31,925 bases of DNA from a virus, in the IMG/VR virus record IMGVR_UViG_3300036785_000806, positions 1 through 31,925 of that record; one strand, given 5' to 3'. The notes beneath the pieces were generated by a model. The model worked only from the letters and a program-made list of their open reading frames with translations. It was not told the origin of the DNA and made no database searches. Both the position numbers and the translations under genes were made by a program. Positions 51 to 31,592 of this stretch are shown one piece after another; within the stretch, counting starts at the first letter, position 1, and each line of letters begins with the position of its first letter.

Positions 51-2003
51 ATGGGAGTAGAAGCTGATTTTAGTGGCTGGGCCACTAAGGCTGGTCTCAA
101 ATGTTCAGATGGACGGATCATCATGCCGGATGCTTTTAAGCATCAGGATACTTTGAAGGTTCCTCTCGTTTGGCAACATGGGCACAATGATCCAGAAAAT
201 GTGCTTGGCCATGCGATTTTGGAAAATCGTGCCGAAGGTGTTTATTGTTTCGGGTTTTTCAATGATTCACCAAAAGCTGTTCATACTCATGGGTTGATTC
301 AGCACAAGGACATCACAATGATGTCTATTTGGGCTAATGATCTCATTGAACGGTCGAAGAAAGTTCTTCACGGAGCTATTCGTGAAGTTAGTCTTGTACT
401 TTCCGGGGCAAATCCTGGTGCTCTTATCGAGAATGTTACTATTCGTCACTCTGATGATGAAGAGACAGTTCTTGATGATGAGGCCATCATTTATACCGGG
501 CTTTCTTTCGAGCACGCAGATGGAGCACCAGCAACAACTGATTCTTCTGGTGATAGTGGAGAAACAGTGCAAGATGTTTATGATTCGATGAGCCCAAAGC
601 AACAAGAAGTTCTTCATTACTTGGTTGGTATGGCTCTTGAAGGGTCAGATGGTAGTAGTGGAGACAATGTTTCACAATCGGACATTTCTAGTGACACGAT
701 TCAAGGCATTTACGATGGAATGACGGACAAGCAGAAAAAGGTGCTTCACCACTTCATGGGCGAAGCTCTTGGTCAAGATGATGGAGAACTTCCCGACTCT
801 GAGAAAGGTAACCAAATGAAGCACAACATTTTTGAAGGCGATGACAAAGACAAGAAGGGAGGGCCGGTTCTTTCTCATGAGGATGTTAAGGGTATCGTCG
901 CTGATGCTACTAAGTGTGGGTCTTTGAAGCAAGCCACAGAGAACTATGCGATTGCGCATGGCATCAATCAGATTGATACGCTGTTCCCTGAGGCTCAGGC
1001 TCTTACATCAGCTCCAGAGTTTTATACTCGCCGAACGGAATGGGTGAACACGGTGTTGAGTGGTGCTCGTAAATCACCATTCAGTCGGGTAAAGACTCAC
1101 TTTGCAGACCTCACATATGATGATGCCAGGGCAAAGGGGTATGTCACTGGAGCGATCAAAGAAGAGGAATTTTTCTCGACTTCTAGGCGAGAGACAATGC
1201 CGCAAACGATCTACAAGAAGCAGAAGCTTGATCGTGATGACATCATTGATATCACTGACTTTGATGTTGTGGCATGGATGAAGAGTGAGATGAGGCTTAT
1301 GCTCGACGAAGAACTCGCTCGTGCAGTCCTTATCGGTGATGGACGTAACATTACGAGTCCAGACAAGATCATGGAAGATCGTATTCGTCCAATTGCCACG
1401 GATGATCAACTCTTTACGATTGAAATTCTGGCTGACTTTGCTGCCAATGGCGTTCAAGATGTTGTTGACGCTATTGTTCAGTATCGTGCACTGTATCGTG
1501 GAACTGGAACCCCAGCCATGTATACGAGTGAGGCATTTATCGCTCAGGTCATGCTGTTGAAGGATACTTTGGGTCGACGTATTTACACTTCTTTGGAGCA
1601 ATTTGCTTCAGAAATTCGTGTTTCTTCGGTTATTCCAGTCGATATCTTTGATCCTTCATCTGGTAGTCCAATAGCAGTTATTGTCAGTATGACAGACTAT
1701 GTTCTCGGCGCCGATAAGGGCGGAGAAGTTAATTTGTTCGACGATTTCGATATTGACTATAACCAATACAAGTATTTGATCGAGGGTCGTTGTTCTGGTG
1801 CTTTGGTGAAGTTGAAGTCGGCTATGGTCGTTAGACAAGGAACGTTTGTCGCTCCGCCAGGTGGGACTGTTCATGCTATTGTTCCTGAGCCACCTAATAA
1901 TCGACAGAGCGTTCCTCCAGTTCATGGATCTCTTCCAGACACTGGCGGGGGAACAGCCGAAGCCTCGTCAAAGAAAGAGACTTCTAAAGAAAAGTCTGAA
2001 TAA
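51..2003 (+). CDS. Fused capsid maturation protease, scaffold and major capsid protein
   Basis: This is a head-assembly polyprotein of about 650 residues. Residues 1-130 resemble the HK97-type prohead protease (peptidase S78): a histidine pair in LVWQHGH (about residues 40-45) and a serine in AIREVSLVLSG (about 114) fit the catalytic His and Ser. An acidic linker follows with two copies of a roughly 26-residue helical unit (TVQDVYDSMSPKQQEVLHYL and TIQGIYDGMTDKQKKVLHHF), a likely scaffold (delta) region. From about residue 256 the chain has the HK97-fold capsid pattern, including DITDFDVVAWMKSEMRLMLD and an ARAVLIGDGR segment. The C-terminus is Pro/Gly/Ser/Lys-rich. I prefer the ATG at 51 because AAAGG lies 10 bases upstream; the ATG at 42 abuts that site. 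An in-frame internal ATG at 816 could make capsid protein separately. The fusion is known in phages; catalytic residues are assigned by eye. Confidence 0.9.
   Translation: MGVEADFSGWATKAGLKCSDGRIIMPDAFKHQDTLKVPLVWQHGHNDPENVLGHAILENRAEGVYCFGFFNDSPKAVHTHGLIQHKDITMMSIWANDLIERSKKVLHGAIREVSLVLSGANPGALIENVTIRHSDDEETVLDDEAIIYTGLSFEHADGAPATTDSSGDSGETVQDVYDSMSPKQQEVLHYLVGMALEGSDGSSGDNVSQSDISSDTIQGIYDGMTDKQKKVLHHFMGEALGQDDGELPDSEKGNQMKHNIFEGDDKDKKGGPVLSHEDVKGIVADATKCGSLKQATENYAIAHGINQIDTLFPEAQALTSAPEFYTRRTEWVNTVLSGARKSPFSRVKTHFADLTYDDARAKGYVTGAIKEEEFFSTSRRETMPQTIYKKQKLDRDDIIDITDFDVVAWMKSEMRLMLDEELARAVLIGDGRNITSPDKIMEDRIRPIATDDQLFTIEILADFAANGVQDVVDAIVQYRALYRGTGTPAMYTSEAFIAQVMLLKDTLGRRIYTSLEQFASEIRVSSVIPVDIFDPSSGSPIAVIVSMTDYVLGADKGGEVNLFDDFDIDYNQYKYLIEGRCSGALVKLKSAMVVRQGTFVAPPGGTVHAIVPEPPNNRQSVPPVHGSLPDTGGGTAEASSKKETSKEKSE
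804..818 (+). promoter_or_regulatory. Candidate internal ribosome binding site and start codon inside the capsid gene
   Basis: AAAGG at 804-808 is followed after 7 bases by an in-frame ATG at 816, exactly between the protease/linker part and the capsid part of the fused gene. Starting here would give a 395-residue protein, the usual size of an HK97-type capsid subunit with its delta domain. This would provide the large excess of capsid protein over protease that assembly needs. It is inferred from position and sequence only. Confidence 0.45.
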
Positions 2004-13901: not shown

Positions 13902-13930
13902 TCGCATAAAATACATGGCTTATAATGAGA
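13902..13930 (+). promoter_or_regulatory. Promoter motif copy C
   Basis: TCGCATAAAATACATG with TATAAT at 13921-13926 and GAGA after it. The spacing is 19 bases, as in copies A, B, D, E and F. Confidence 0.75.
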
Positions 13931-24466: not shown

Positions 24467-24683
24467 AGTCGGAGATGTTGTCCGAATTCGTGAAGTATAC
24501 AGTTTCGGGACGGATGAGAATTTTACTGGAAAAGTAGGAGTAGTTGTTTATCCAGCAACATGCATAACTCGTAAAGGAGAAGAAATACCAGCTTCCTTTG
24601 TATGGGTTTCTGAAGACATGGCTGGATATTTCAAAGTAACTGAGTTAGACGTAATTGGGAATTGTTTTGCGGGAGTAAGGTAG
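24459..24683 (+). CDS. Small SH3-like barrel protein, unknown function
   Basis: 74 residues from the ATG at 24459. The pattern PKVGDVVRIREVYSFGTDEN followed by FTGKVGVVVYP, PASFVWVSEDMAGYFKVTEL suggests a small KOW/SH3-like beta barrel. The ribosome site is weak, and an in-frame GTG at 24429 is an alternative that adds ten residues. The frame is open further back, but that part shadows the previous gene. Its last 15-20 bases are also the 5' strand of the first stem of the structured RNA that begins at 24665. Confidence 0.55.
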   Translation: MPKVGDVVRIREVYSFGTDENFTGKVGVVVYPATCITRKGEEIPASFVWVSEDMAGYFKVTELDVIGNCFAGVR

Positions 24684-24758
24684 GGTATTTTCATATCCCT
24701 GGGAGCACCTACCGGCTGATCATCCCATTCACCCGCGATGGTCAGGGAGCCCGCAAAA
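24665..24758 (+). ncRNA. Three-way-junction RNA, unit 1 of a tandem pair
   Basis: Three stems enclose a junction. P1: TTTTGCGGG (24665-24673) with CCCGCAAAA (24750-24758), 9 pairs. P2: GGTAGG (24679-24684) with CCTACC (24708-24713). P3: CTGATCATC (24716-24724) with GATGGTCAG (24737-24745), 9 pairs with one G-T. The single-stranded joints are AGTAA, GG and GGAG. Unit 2 has the same joints with different stem bases. P1 starts inside the last codons of the previous gene, and its stop codon lies in P2. I do not recognise a known riboswitch or ribozyme. Structure is seen in the sequence; function is unknown. Confidence 0.7.
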
Positions 24759-24779
24759 ATCTTGCGTGGGTGGAGTGAT

Positions 24780-24817
24780 CGTCGTTTGGGCGACGTTAAA
24801 TAGATCTTAGGCCCAAA
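24780..24817 (+). other. Linker with possible H-type pseudoknot
   Basis: Between the two junction units, CGTCG (24780-24784) pairs with CGACG (24791-24795) around the loop TTTGGG. That loop is perfectly complementary to CCCAAA at 24812-24817, so an H-type pseudoknot can form. The tract is non-coding. Confidence 0.45.
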
Positions 24818-24820
24818 GCG

Positions 24821-24893
24821 GTTGTGGGAGATTAAGGATACTCACGCTATCCGGCTCACCGACACTATGCCCGCCGGTGAGGGAGCCCACAGC
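24821..24893 (+). ncRNA. Three-way-junction RNA, unit 2 of a tandem pair
   Basis: P1: GTTGTGGG (24821-24828) with CCCACAGC (24886-24893), 8 pairs with one G-T. P2: GGATA (24836-24840) with TATCC (24848-24852), loop CTCACGC. P3: CTCACCG (24855-24861) with CGGTGAG (24875-24881). The joints are AGATTAA, GG and GGAG, matching unit 1 (AGTAA, GG, GGAG). Both P3 loops end in CCCGC. Stem sequences differ between units while pairing is kept, which is strong evidence that the RNA structure matters. The 3' strand of P1 also overlaps a possible CACAG/CTGTG hairpin (24888-24902), so a switch between two states is conceivable. Confidence 0.7.
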
Positions 24894-24918: not shown

Positions 24919-25100
24919 CCACGGGATGCCACATCCTCTTGTGGTTCAGATAAACAAAAAACCGGTTTCTCTTAGTTGGGACACAAACCCCAATGCTAGA
25001 TCAAGTTTGTTTGTGAGCTTGGTCAATTGAAACGACGGGGGCATGTATGGTTTGATAATGAGCCGTTTGTGGGACGGTACTATCATACTGTACATGCCCC
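24919..25100 (+). other. Run of hairpins downstream of the tandem RNA
   Basis: Four hairpins follow unit 2. One has GGATG/CATCC inside a CCAC/GTGG stem, about 24919-24944. One pairs TTGGG (24976-24980) with CCCAA (24989-24993). One pairs GATCAAG (24999-25005) with CTTGGTC (25018-25024). The last is a 63-base hairpin, 25038-25100, with a perfect 10-pair base (GGGGCATGTA with TACATGCCCC), then about 9 more pairs and a CCGT/ACGG tip. None is followed by a T-run, so they do not look like terminators. With the two junction units this gives roughly 440 bases of structured, non-coding sequence. Confidence 0.55.
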
Positions 25101-28424: not shown

Positions 28425-28947
28425 ACATGCGTTTTTAAGCCCAAGTAATTATCATTGGTTAAACTATAATGATGAAAAATTAGAAGCTCGGTATCTCTCG
28501 GCAATGGCGGCAAAAAGAGGCTCTGATATTCATGCTCTTGCCACGGAAGCGATTCGTCTTGGTATAAAATTAGCAAAATCAAATCAGGCATTGTCTACTT
28601 ATGTTAATGATGCCATTGGTTACAAAATGACCTCTGAACAGGTACTTTATTATTCTGAAAACTGTTTTGGAACTGCAGATGCAATATCATTCAGAAGAAA
28701 TAAGCTTCGAATTCATGATCTTAAAACTGGAATTGTTCATACATCAGAAAGACAGCTTGAAGTTTATGCAGCTTTGTTTTGTCTCGAGTATGGAATAGAT
28801 CCATACACAATTGAGGTTGAACTTCGGATCTATCAAAGAGAGGAAATTCGTATTTTTGACCCAACCCCAGATTTAATATCTCACATCATGCAAGTCATTA
28901 TGGAGTTTGATAAACAAATAGAGGCCATAAAGGAGGCGAGCCTGTGA
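28390..28947 (+). CDS. PD-(D/E)XK exonuclease, RecB/Cas4-like
   Basis: 185 residues. An N-terminal substrate-binding helix region (RGSDIHALATEAIRLGIKLA) leads to the nuclease core: ENCFGTADAISFRRN, then LRIHDLKTG with the D-x-K residues, then ERQLEVYAALF (the QxxxY motif). This is the usual RecB/Cas4-type arrangement. It starts inside the VRR-NUC gene and ends overlapping the GTG of the next gene, so the three form one coupled unit. In phages such enzymes act in recombination, DNA processing or host DNA breakdown. The iron-sulphur cysteines of true Cas4 are not seen. Confidence 0.75.
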   Translation: MIFNSHLDLKDKHAFLSPSNYHWLNYNDEKLEARYLSAMAAKRGSDIHALATEAIRLGIKLAKSNQALSTYVNDAIGYKMTSEQVLYYSENCFGTADAISFRRNKLRIHDLKTGIVHTSERQLEVYAALFCLEYGIDPYTIEVELRIYQREEIRIFDPTPDLISHIMQVIMEFDKQIEAIKEASL

Positions 28948-31592
28948 TTATCGAAGAAGATGACTTATTACACTATGGAATTCTTCGACGTTCAGGGCGA
29001 TACCCGTGGGGTAGTGGTGGTAATGTGGAGCAAAGGAGTAAGAGTTTTCACGATTATGTCGAAGATATGAAATCCCAAGGCCTTACGGAAAATCAAATTG
29101 CTAAAGGTGTTGGGCTTACTGAAGCACAATTTCGTGCAACCAAAACAATTGCAACTGCAGCGACTAAACAAGCAAGGATTAGCCAGGCGCAAAGACTTAA
29201 AAATACTGGTATGTCTAATGTCGCTATTGGGAAAGAAATGGGAATTAACGAGTCTGTTGTGAGATCTTTACTTAAGCCAGGAGCCGCAGACAAGACGCAC
29301 ATACTTATTGAAACATCAGATATGCTTAGACGTCAAGTTGCTGAAAAAACTTATGTGGATATTGGAGAAGGAGTCGAAGTCGGTCTAAATATCAGTAAGG
29401 AAAAACTTAATGCAGCCGTATCTATTCTAGAAGATGAAGGATACCGGAAGCATATAATTAAGATGCCGCAAGCTGGCACAAAGTTTGAAACAAACATGAA
29501 AGTTTTGACCCCCCCTGGAACAACATGGGGGGATGTTCAAAAAAATAGGGATAAAATTAAACAGATTCAAGAATTTTCTGATAGTGGTGGTAGAGATTAT
29601 GGTAAAGTTCATGATGCCATAGCGCTCGACCCAAAACGTTTACAGGTCATTTACAAAGAAGATGGTGGTGGTGAAGCTGATGGCGTAATATATGTGCGAC
29701 CGAATGTTAAAGACATCACGCTTGGTAAATCTTTGTATGCTCAAGTTCGTGTTCAGGTTGGTGATGGGCATTACATCAAAGGAATGGCAATATACAAAGA
29801 TGATATGCCTAAAGGGGTAGATCTTCAATTTAATACTAAAAAAACCAGTACAGGCAACAAGTTAGATGCCTTGAAGCCGCTGCAAGAAGATAAAGATCTT
29901 CCGTTTGGAGCTATTGTTAGTCAGATACTTGAGAATCCTGGAACTCCTCATGAAAAAAATGTATCTGCTATGAATATTGTTCGTGAAGAAGGACAATGGG
30001 TTGATTGGAATAAAAAACTGTCATCGCAATTCCTTTCAAAGCAGAGCCCAAAGTTAGCATTAGAACAATTAAATATGACTTATGAGCGTCGGCTAAATGA
30101 ATTTGACACAATCATGTCGCTTACGAATCCTACAATTAAGAAGCATCTTCTTAATGCGTTTGCTGAAGCTACTGATTCTGCAGCAGTTCATCTTGATGCC
30201 GCAGCTTTATCAAGTCGTCAACAATGGCACACAATTCTTCCGATAAATTCAATGAAGACTGATGAAATTTATGCAACAAATTACAACAATGGTGAGCGGG
30301 TAGCTTTAATTAGGTTCCCTCATGGTGGAACATTCGAGATTCCTGAATTAACAGTTAACAACAGGAATCCAGAAGCACAACGCTTGCTAGGAGAATCTCG
30401 AGATGCTGTTGGTATTCACCACACAGTAGCTAGTCGTTTGTCTGGTGCTGATTTTGATGGCGACACAGTAGTAGTCATTCCAAATAATCAAGGGAAGATT
30501 AAAACTACCCCTGCTCTTGAAGGATTGAAGGGTTTCGATCCACAAGAATTGTATAAAGCATACCCGGGTATGGAGAAAATTACTCCGGCTCGTAAACAAA
30601 TGGAGATGGGTAGTATAACCAATTTAATTACAGACATGACTGTTCATGGTGCACCACAAAATAAGATAGCCCAAGCTATTCGCCATTCCATGGTAGTCAT
30701 TGATGCTGAGAATCACAACCTTGATTATCGTAAGTCTTCTCAAGATAATGGTATACCAAAGTTGAAGACTGAGTATCAGGGTGGTAGTAAGAAAGGTGCG
30801 TCTACTCTGCTGTCCTTGGCAGGGTCGCCTGAATGGATCAATCAAAGAAAGGCCCGTCCTGCTAGACAAGGTGGCCCCTTCGATCCAAAGACTGGACGTA
30901 AGGTCTACGTTGATACAGGTAAAACAACTAGATCTGGGACACTAAAGAAAGAGGCAGTTCCAAAGCTAGCTAATGTAGAGGATGCAAGGGCCCTGTCATC
31001 GGGTACCCGTATGGAGACTGTGTATGCTAGTCACTCTAATGATCTGAAAGCATTGGCTAATGCTGCTCGTGTGGCATCACACAAGACCCCCTCTCTCATC
31101 TACTCTCCCTCTGCTAAAGTTTCATACGCCCCTCAAGTTGAAAGCCTGACCTCAAATTTGAAGACCGCCCAAAAAAACAGGCCTCTTGAAAGACAGGCAC
31201 AGGTCATTGCAAACGCAGAGGTCCGGGCCAAGCGGGATGCTAATCCTAATCTTGAGGAATCAACTGTTAAGAAGATTAAGTTTCAATCGTTAGAGAAGGC
31301 TCGTGTACGCATGGGTGCTAGCAAGAAGGAATCCCAGATAGAGATCTCACCTAAGGAGTGGGATGCTATTCAAGCTGGTGCCATCAGTGACAACAAGCTT
31401 AGGCAGATCCTATCTAACACAGACATAGAGGTAGTGCGTCAGTATGCAACACCAAAGGAGGTGTATCTAATGACACCTGCTAAGACACGTAGGGCTGCCT
31501 CTATGCGTACAGCTGGCTACACTAGGGCTGAGATAGCTGCTCAGTTGGGTGTATCACTGACCACTCTAGACACAGCATTGAAAGGAGAATGA
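28944..31592 (+). CDS. RNA polymerase-like protein with DFDGD motif and HTH motifs
   Basis: 882 residues, starting at GTG with AGGAGG upstream. Near residue 10 is LHYGILRRSGRYPWGSG, followed by two helix-turn-helix-like repeats (LTENQIAKGVGLTEAQFRAT and MSNVAIGKEMGINESVVRS). The middle has LIRFPHGGTFEIPELTVNN, then SGADFDGD with D503, D505 and D507. DFDGD is the metal-binding signature of two-barrel RNA polymerases, including the bacterial beta-prime subunit, QDE-1 and the single-chain phage enzyme YonO. The C-terminus has a third HTH (YTRAEIAAQLGVSLTTLDTA). The likely role is transcription of phage genes, but it might also be a virion or inactive relative. Base composition is more GC-rich from about 30800 to the end than before. 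Confidence 0.65.
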   Translation: MIIEEDDLLHYGILRRSGRYPWGSGGNVEQRSKSFHDYVEDMKSQGLTENQIAKGVGLTEAQFRATKTIATAATKQARISQAQRLKNTGMSNVAIGKEMGINESVVRSLLKPGAADKTHILIETSDMLRRQVAEKTYVDIGEGVEVGLNISKEKLNAAVSILEDEGYRKHIIKMPQAGTKFETNMKVLTPPGTTWGDVQKNRDKIKQIQEFSDSGGRDYGKVHDAIALDPKRLQVIYKEDGGGEADGVIYVRPNVKDITLGKSLYAQVRVQVGDGHYIKGMAIYKDDMPKGVDLQFNTKKTSTGNKLDALKPLQEDKDLPFGAIVSQILENPGTPHEKNVSAMNIVREEGQWVDWNKKLSSQFLSKQSPKLALEQLNMTYERRLNEFDTIMSLTNPTIKKHLLNAFAEATDSAAVHLDAAALSSRQQWHTILPINSMKTDEIYATNYNNGERVALIRFPHGGTFEIPELTVNNRNPEAQRLLGESRDAVGIHHTVASRLSGADFDGDTVVVIPNNQGKIKTTPALEGLKGFDPQELYKAYPGMEKITPARKQMEMGSITNLITDMTVHGAPQNKIAQAIRHSMVVIDAENHNLDYRKSSQDNGIPKLKTEYQGGSKKGASTLLSLAGSPEWINQRKARPARQGGPFDPKTGRKVYVDTGKTTRSGTLKKEAVPKLANVEDARALSSGTRMETVYASHSNDLKALANAARVASHKTPSLIYSPSAKVSYAPQVESLTSNLKTAQKNRPLERQAQVIANAEVRAKRDANPNLEESTVKKIKFQSLEKARVRMGASKKESQIEISPKEWDAIQAGAISDNKLRQILSNTDIEVVRQYATPKEVYLMTPAKTRRAASMRTAGYTRAEIAAQLGVSLTTLDTALKGE

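Follow-up and report, generated by a model that had tools for sequence, protein, structure and literature searches.

A phage RNA carries one three-way junction (3WJ) twice, upstream of a Pistol ribozyme and again, by comparison with its homologues, as the P3 arm of that ribozyme. Whether this RNA is a modular one processed by the Pistol, with the 3WJ domain capping or marking the new RNA end, we regard as an even question. The window, the whole stretch of 31,925 nt analyzed here, is IMG/VR record IMGVR_UViG_3300036785_000806, a phage sequence of environmental origin. Comparison with related phages establishes, as predicted elements, the 3WJ fold and its varying positions, the Pistol core with its pseudoknot, the attachment of the 3WJ to P3, and the folded tail.

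The source is probably a siphovirus with an Actinomycetota host; the host is assigned from relatives of its helicase in Streptomyces, Arthrobacter and Gordonia phages. Enterococcus phages are likewise among the helicase matches.

Table 1. Features of the RNA locus in the window
Feature	Start	End	Strand	Basis or detail
3WJ copy 1 (type A)	24665	24758	+	Minimum free energy fold; model R2, 39.3 bits, E 1.3e-8
Copy 1 P1	24665-24673	24750-24758		TTTTGCGGG/CCCGCAAAA
Copy 1 P2	24679-24684	24708-24713		GGTAGG/CCTACC, long loop
Copy 1 P3	24716-24724	24737-24745		9 bp
Spacer between copies	24759	24820		62 nt
Pistol ribozyme core	24780	24820	+	Rfam RF02679, 43.3 bits (gathering 34.5)
Pistol P1	24780-24783	24792-24795
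Pistol pseudoknot	24785-24791	24811-24817		TTTGGGC with GCCCAAA, 7 bp
Pistol P2 5′ strand	24803	24806		GATC
3WJ copy 2 (type B), forming Pistol P3	24821	24893	+	R2, 61.3 bits, E 1.5e-14; L018 and L048 arranged alike
Copy 2 P1	24821-24828	24886-24893		GTTGTGGG/CCCACAGC; starts directly 3′ of AGCG
Copy 2 P2	24836-24840	24848-24852
Copy 2 P3	24855-24861	24875-24881
Expected Pistol cleavage junction A24894/U24895 and P2 3′ strand GACU	24894	24899	+	Read against Pistol consensus (PMC4604425)
Structured tail	24894	25100	+	About 205 nt; alignment A4 and consensus fold, three phages
Tail stem	24965-24969	25029-25033		Covarying
Tail long hairpin	25037	25100		Covarying
SF2 DNA helicase gene	25339	26526	+	phrog_62, E 1e-50

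Two copies of one junction

An earlier note, made from the sequence alone, described two copies of one 3WJ separated by 62 nt, and both are found there. The 3WJ is the minimum free energy structure of each copy folded alone (-36.6 kcal/mol for copy 1 and -25.1 kcal/mol for copy 2). Fold energy by itself is weak evidence for the 3WJ and not decisive, with z-scores of -2.9 for copy 1, -1.05 for copy 2 and -0.5 for the whole 281 nt.

The first relative was reached through the helicase. It is the L018 phage, whose helicase is 76% identical and whose order is 3WJ, Pistol and 3WJ. Pattern scans added the L025/L048 phage with three copies and the L035/L049 phage with one, and the set comprises eight copies in four phages including the window. 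MAFFT misaligned the raw copies, so the arms were set by hand, and the first model used loops that had been shortened or masked with N. A covariance model from seven copies (R1) scores 46.8–76.1 bits for all eight true copies, and both window copies are also detected by R2, a model that contains sequences of the other phages alone (Table 1).

The stems covary, as the earlier note had proposed from two copies, and the homologues carry compensatory changes. Over 17 pairs in the eight natural copies, 93.9% of the cells are paired against 39–47% in slid-partner controls, and double-sided changes occur in eight pairs against at most three in the controls, although the slid control is somewhat flattering because the structure guided the alignment. 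The near-constant positions are GGG-AG..(N)AA-GG, CC-GG-C and GG.AG-CCC. The joints of copy 1 are AGTAA, GG and GGAG. Those that the note called conserved are indeed nearly invariant, but most copies have AGAUNAA as joint 1, and the AG-UAA of copy 1 is only a shortened form. The CCCGC that ends both P3 loops in the window, also pointed out in the note, is not kept in the other copies, so its loop-loop pairing with P1 or GGG was dropped. Scanning viral contigs for the exact pattern with the CCCGC loop gave only chance matches.

These comparisons indicate that the 3WJ is a real RNA building block, as the same fold stands in other positions in related phages. It is absent from Rfam, where no relevant family, riboswitch or other, matches it at E up to 10. 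The Rfam ribozymes, Twister and hammerhead among them, were considered as its identity and dropped for want of a match. A coding region was also discarded, as no frame is both open and common to the three loci compared, in line with the noncoding reading of the earlier note. In a GTDB scan with 80 of 115 stretches scored, the best R1 score was 28.5 bits, against at least 46.8 for the true copies, and is taken as chance. No earlier report of this RNA was found in the open-access papers searched.

A Pistol ribozyme between the copies

The Rfam scan leaves the 3WJ without a family but matches the spacer, which the earlier note had passed over, to the Pistol ribozyme. The refuting outcome named in the note, a match to an established Rfam family, is therefore half realized, in the spacer and in copy 2 as the P3 arm of the Pistol. 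We read the window on the Pistol anatomy of PMC4604425 and PMC6154101. Besides P1 and the pseudoknot, the core contains TTAAATA, the P2 5′ strand and TTAGG..AGCG. Elsewhere, the RF02679 scores are 41.3 bits in the L025 phage and 30.0 bits, under the gathering cut-off, in L018. The pseudoknot covaries, the window pair being replaced by ATTGGGC/GCCCAAT in L018 and CTAGGC/GCCTAG in the L025 phage.

Rfam places the Pistol at 24780-24833, its end being forced in that alignment. The P2 3′ strand would then lie in joint 1 of copy 2 (24830-24833), which we rejected because no P3 is left and L018 lacks the bases that match there. Instead, GTTGTGGG directly after AGCG forms with CCCACAGC the outer stem of copy 2, so that copy 2 is the P3 arm. 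A Pistol requires P3 directly after GCG and a 2-nt gap to P2′ (PMC4604425). In the window, L018 and L048, P1 of the 3WJ starts right after GCG and exactly 2 nt lead to P2′, with two mismatches in the L048 stem.

All three 3WJ-Pistols, those of the window, L018 and the L025 phage, have AU at the expected cleavage site, where every other Pistol read, L051 included, has GU. The AU site does not bar membership, since the Pistol GU is only modestly conserved and variable in identity (PMC4604425). P2 is weak, as GATC/GACU in the window makes two standard pairs, one wobble and one mismatch, and L018 has about one pair. Equivalents of purine 32, G33, G40 and G42 are retained. From the AU site and the weak P2, cutting by the 3WJ-Pistols may be slow or lost.

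A structured tail before the helicase gene

The earlier note ended the unit at 24893, short of a covarying structure that continues to about 25100. This tail has a conserved hairpin CUGUG..CACAG, a conserved UAAACAAAAAACCGG and the covarying stem and long hairpin of Table 1. Double changes occur in 20 of the 60 predicted consensus pairs in the window, L018 and the L025 phage. L051 has the first half of the tail in common with them, and the tails of the Microbacterium phages Camille and Count are similarly laid out on a weak alignment. In the tail pattern search, the remaining matches beyond L051 are chance ones in coding sequence. The helicase gene stands directly downstream of the RNA in L018 and the L025 phage as well.

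Farther downstream in the window, 28944-31592 encodes a large protein that matches phrog_4291, labelled RNA-dependent RNA polymerase; it is possibly a YonO-like phage RNA polymerase. A promoter-like element, ATACATGGnTTATAATGAGA, recurs in several related phages: in the window at 13911 and 23646, in L048 at 16458 and 19731 (-), in L049 at 3935, 10425 and 11239 (-), and in L050 at 7090 and 15697 (-). TCGCA precedes it in the window, L048 and L050. At some sites, an immediate hairpin and T-run follow and then a ribosome-binding site.

P3 as a graft site

The junctions change places among the phages. Type A is upstream and type B inside the Pistol in the window, and the two are exchanged in L018. 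In the L025 phage, A and B form a tandem without a Pistol; a promoter-like sequence precedes the pair, and a small Cys-rich ORF follows immediately. The Pistol P3 of this phage holds a third copy, which differs from both. The lone copy of L049 precedes another Cys-rich ORF.

Pistols were compared among other actinophages, namely Gordonia GMA7 and GTE7, Microbacterium Camille and Count, and Curtobacterium JoyLin and Pippin15. Unrelated modules occupy P3 in other actinophages. JoyLin and Pippin15 are closely similar phages whose P3 arms differ between near-identical flanks, and a T-arm-bearing module that Count has within its Pistol P3 precedes the Pistol in Camille. By these comparisons, the Pistol P3 appears to be a general graft site for structured modules in actinophages.

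The T-arm module, tRNA- or tmRNA-like, is at L175 1243-1380 in Count and L014 about 1335-1440 in Camille; its tmRNA matches are sub-threshold in Camille and none in Count. Separately, P3 of the third 3WJ copy at L048 6528-6596 (-) resembles a tRNA T-arm, GGTTCGATTCC. At L035 about 380-425 (-), GCGACGTTAAATAGAGCTTAGAC resembles a decayed Pistol core; the lone 3WJ lies about 200 nt upstream of it. In Gordonia phage GMA2, a Pistol-like sequence (L176 1201-1242) abuts the 3′ end of a tRNA-Trp within a tRNA cluster, much as theta ribozymes neighbor phage tRNAs.

Discussion

We propose one RNA composed of 3WJ copy 1, the Pistol with copy 2 as P3, and the folded tail before the helicase gene. The transcript would be cut after A24894. 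Its upstream product would then end in a compact 3WJ-Pistol-3WJ block with a 2′,3′-cyclic phosphate, and the downstream RNA would begin with a 5′-OH at the folded tail. From its position we infer a capping role of the 3WJ, which would most likely serve as a rigid module for binding or end capping, shielding the processed RNA or bringing a factor to it. Such a role fits the 3WJ position and the conservation confined to the junction, with the loops free. Cleavage may play no part in what the 3WJ does, as the L049 copy is alone and the L025 phage tandem has no Pistol. Ligand sensing or a further ribozyme appears less likely than an end-protecting or factor-binding 3WJ.

The ribozyme resembles RF02679 Pistols in P1, the pseudoknot, the conserved core, the P3 right after GCG and the 2-nt junction before P2′, but differs in the 3WJ on P3, the AU at the cut, the weak P2 and the long conserved tail. 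The actinophage Pistols likewise lie mostly at or just past a gene end, often with folded noncoding sequence next, and their P3 arms are variable, being elaborate in Camille and Count. However, they keep GU, and R1 finds no 3WJ of this kind among their P3 modules. The theta ribozymes of phages are also small and proposed to trim noncoding RNA ends, but have an HDV-like fold and adjoin tRNAs (PMC10879173).

The 3WJ could instead bind a protein, from the phage or its host, that controls the adjacent genes, with a separate Pistol merely tolerating it as P3. This is a possible but rather doubtful reading. The invariant joints with free loops, the location in leaders and between genes and the Cys-rich ORFs behind the L025 phage tandem and the L049 copy agree with it, but there is no protein candidate, the downstream genes vary, and single and double copies both exist. 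The earlier note likened the pair to glycine-type tandem aptamers. The tandem is real, one fold in two copies in a row, and a riboswitch, which on P3 would make a natural ligand-controlled ribozyme, is suggested also by the conserved junction core, the placement in leaders of L018 and the L025 phage, and a P3 adjoining the cleavage site. Nonetheless, we find it unlikely. The sequence, Rfam and gene context do not match the glycine type, no Rfam riboswitch matches even with E relaxed to 10, no metabolic gene is shared, and the 3WJ is so far seen in only a few phages. The single copies (L049 and the L025 phage Pistol P3) and the differing downstream genes specifically disfavor the aptamer.

A 3WJ acting on P3 as a sensing domain, among the exchangeable phage P3 modules, would make the Pistol a natural ligand- or protein-controlled ribozyme, which we likewise think improbable. 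We give as little credence to a decayed Pistol retained as a scaffold, its fold selected, its cutting lost and its RNA working uncut. That all three relatives have the AU site and a poor P2 despite a covarying pseudoknot, and that L018 scores below the Rfam cut-off, would suit such decay, whereas the retained purine 32, G33, G40 and G42 equivalents and the modest conservation of GU oppose it. Least probable is that the 3WJ cleaves itself as a ribozyme of a new kind, discovered near a Pistol as other ribozymes were. It adjoins the Pistol and is compact and conserved, but it matches no ribozyme family, is nested in the Pistol P3 and has no known catalytic core in its sequence.

In summary, the preferred reading is a modular, Pistol-processed phage RNA with a capping or marking 3WJ. 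The comparison adds a covariation-supported RNA domain not listed in Rfam and points to the Pistol P3 arm as a site onto which phages graft folded RNA modules. The shared tail with swappable arms offers a testable case of RNA processing and end protection, or of natural control of a small ribozyme.
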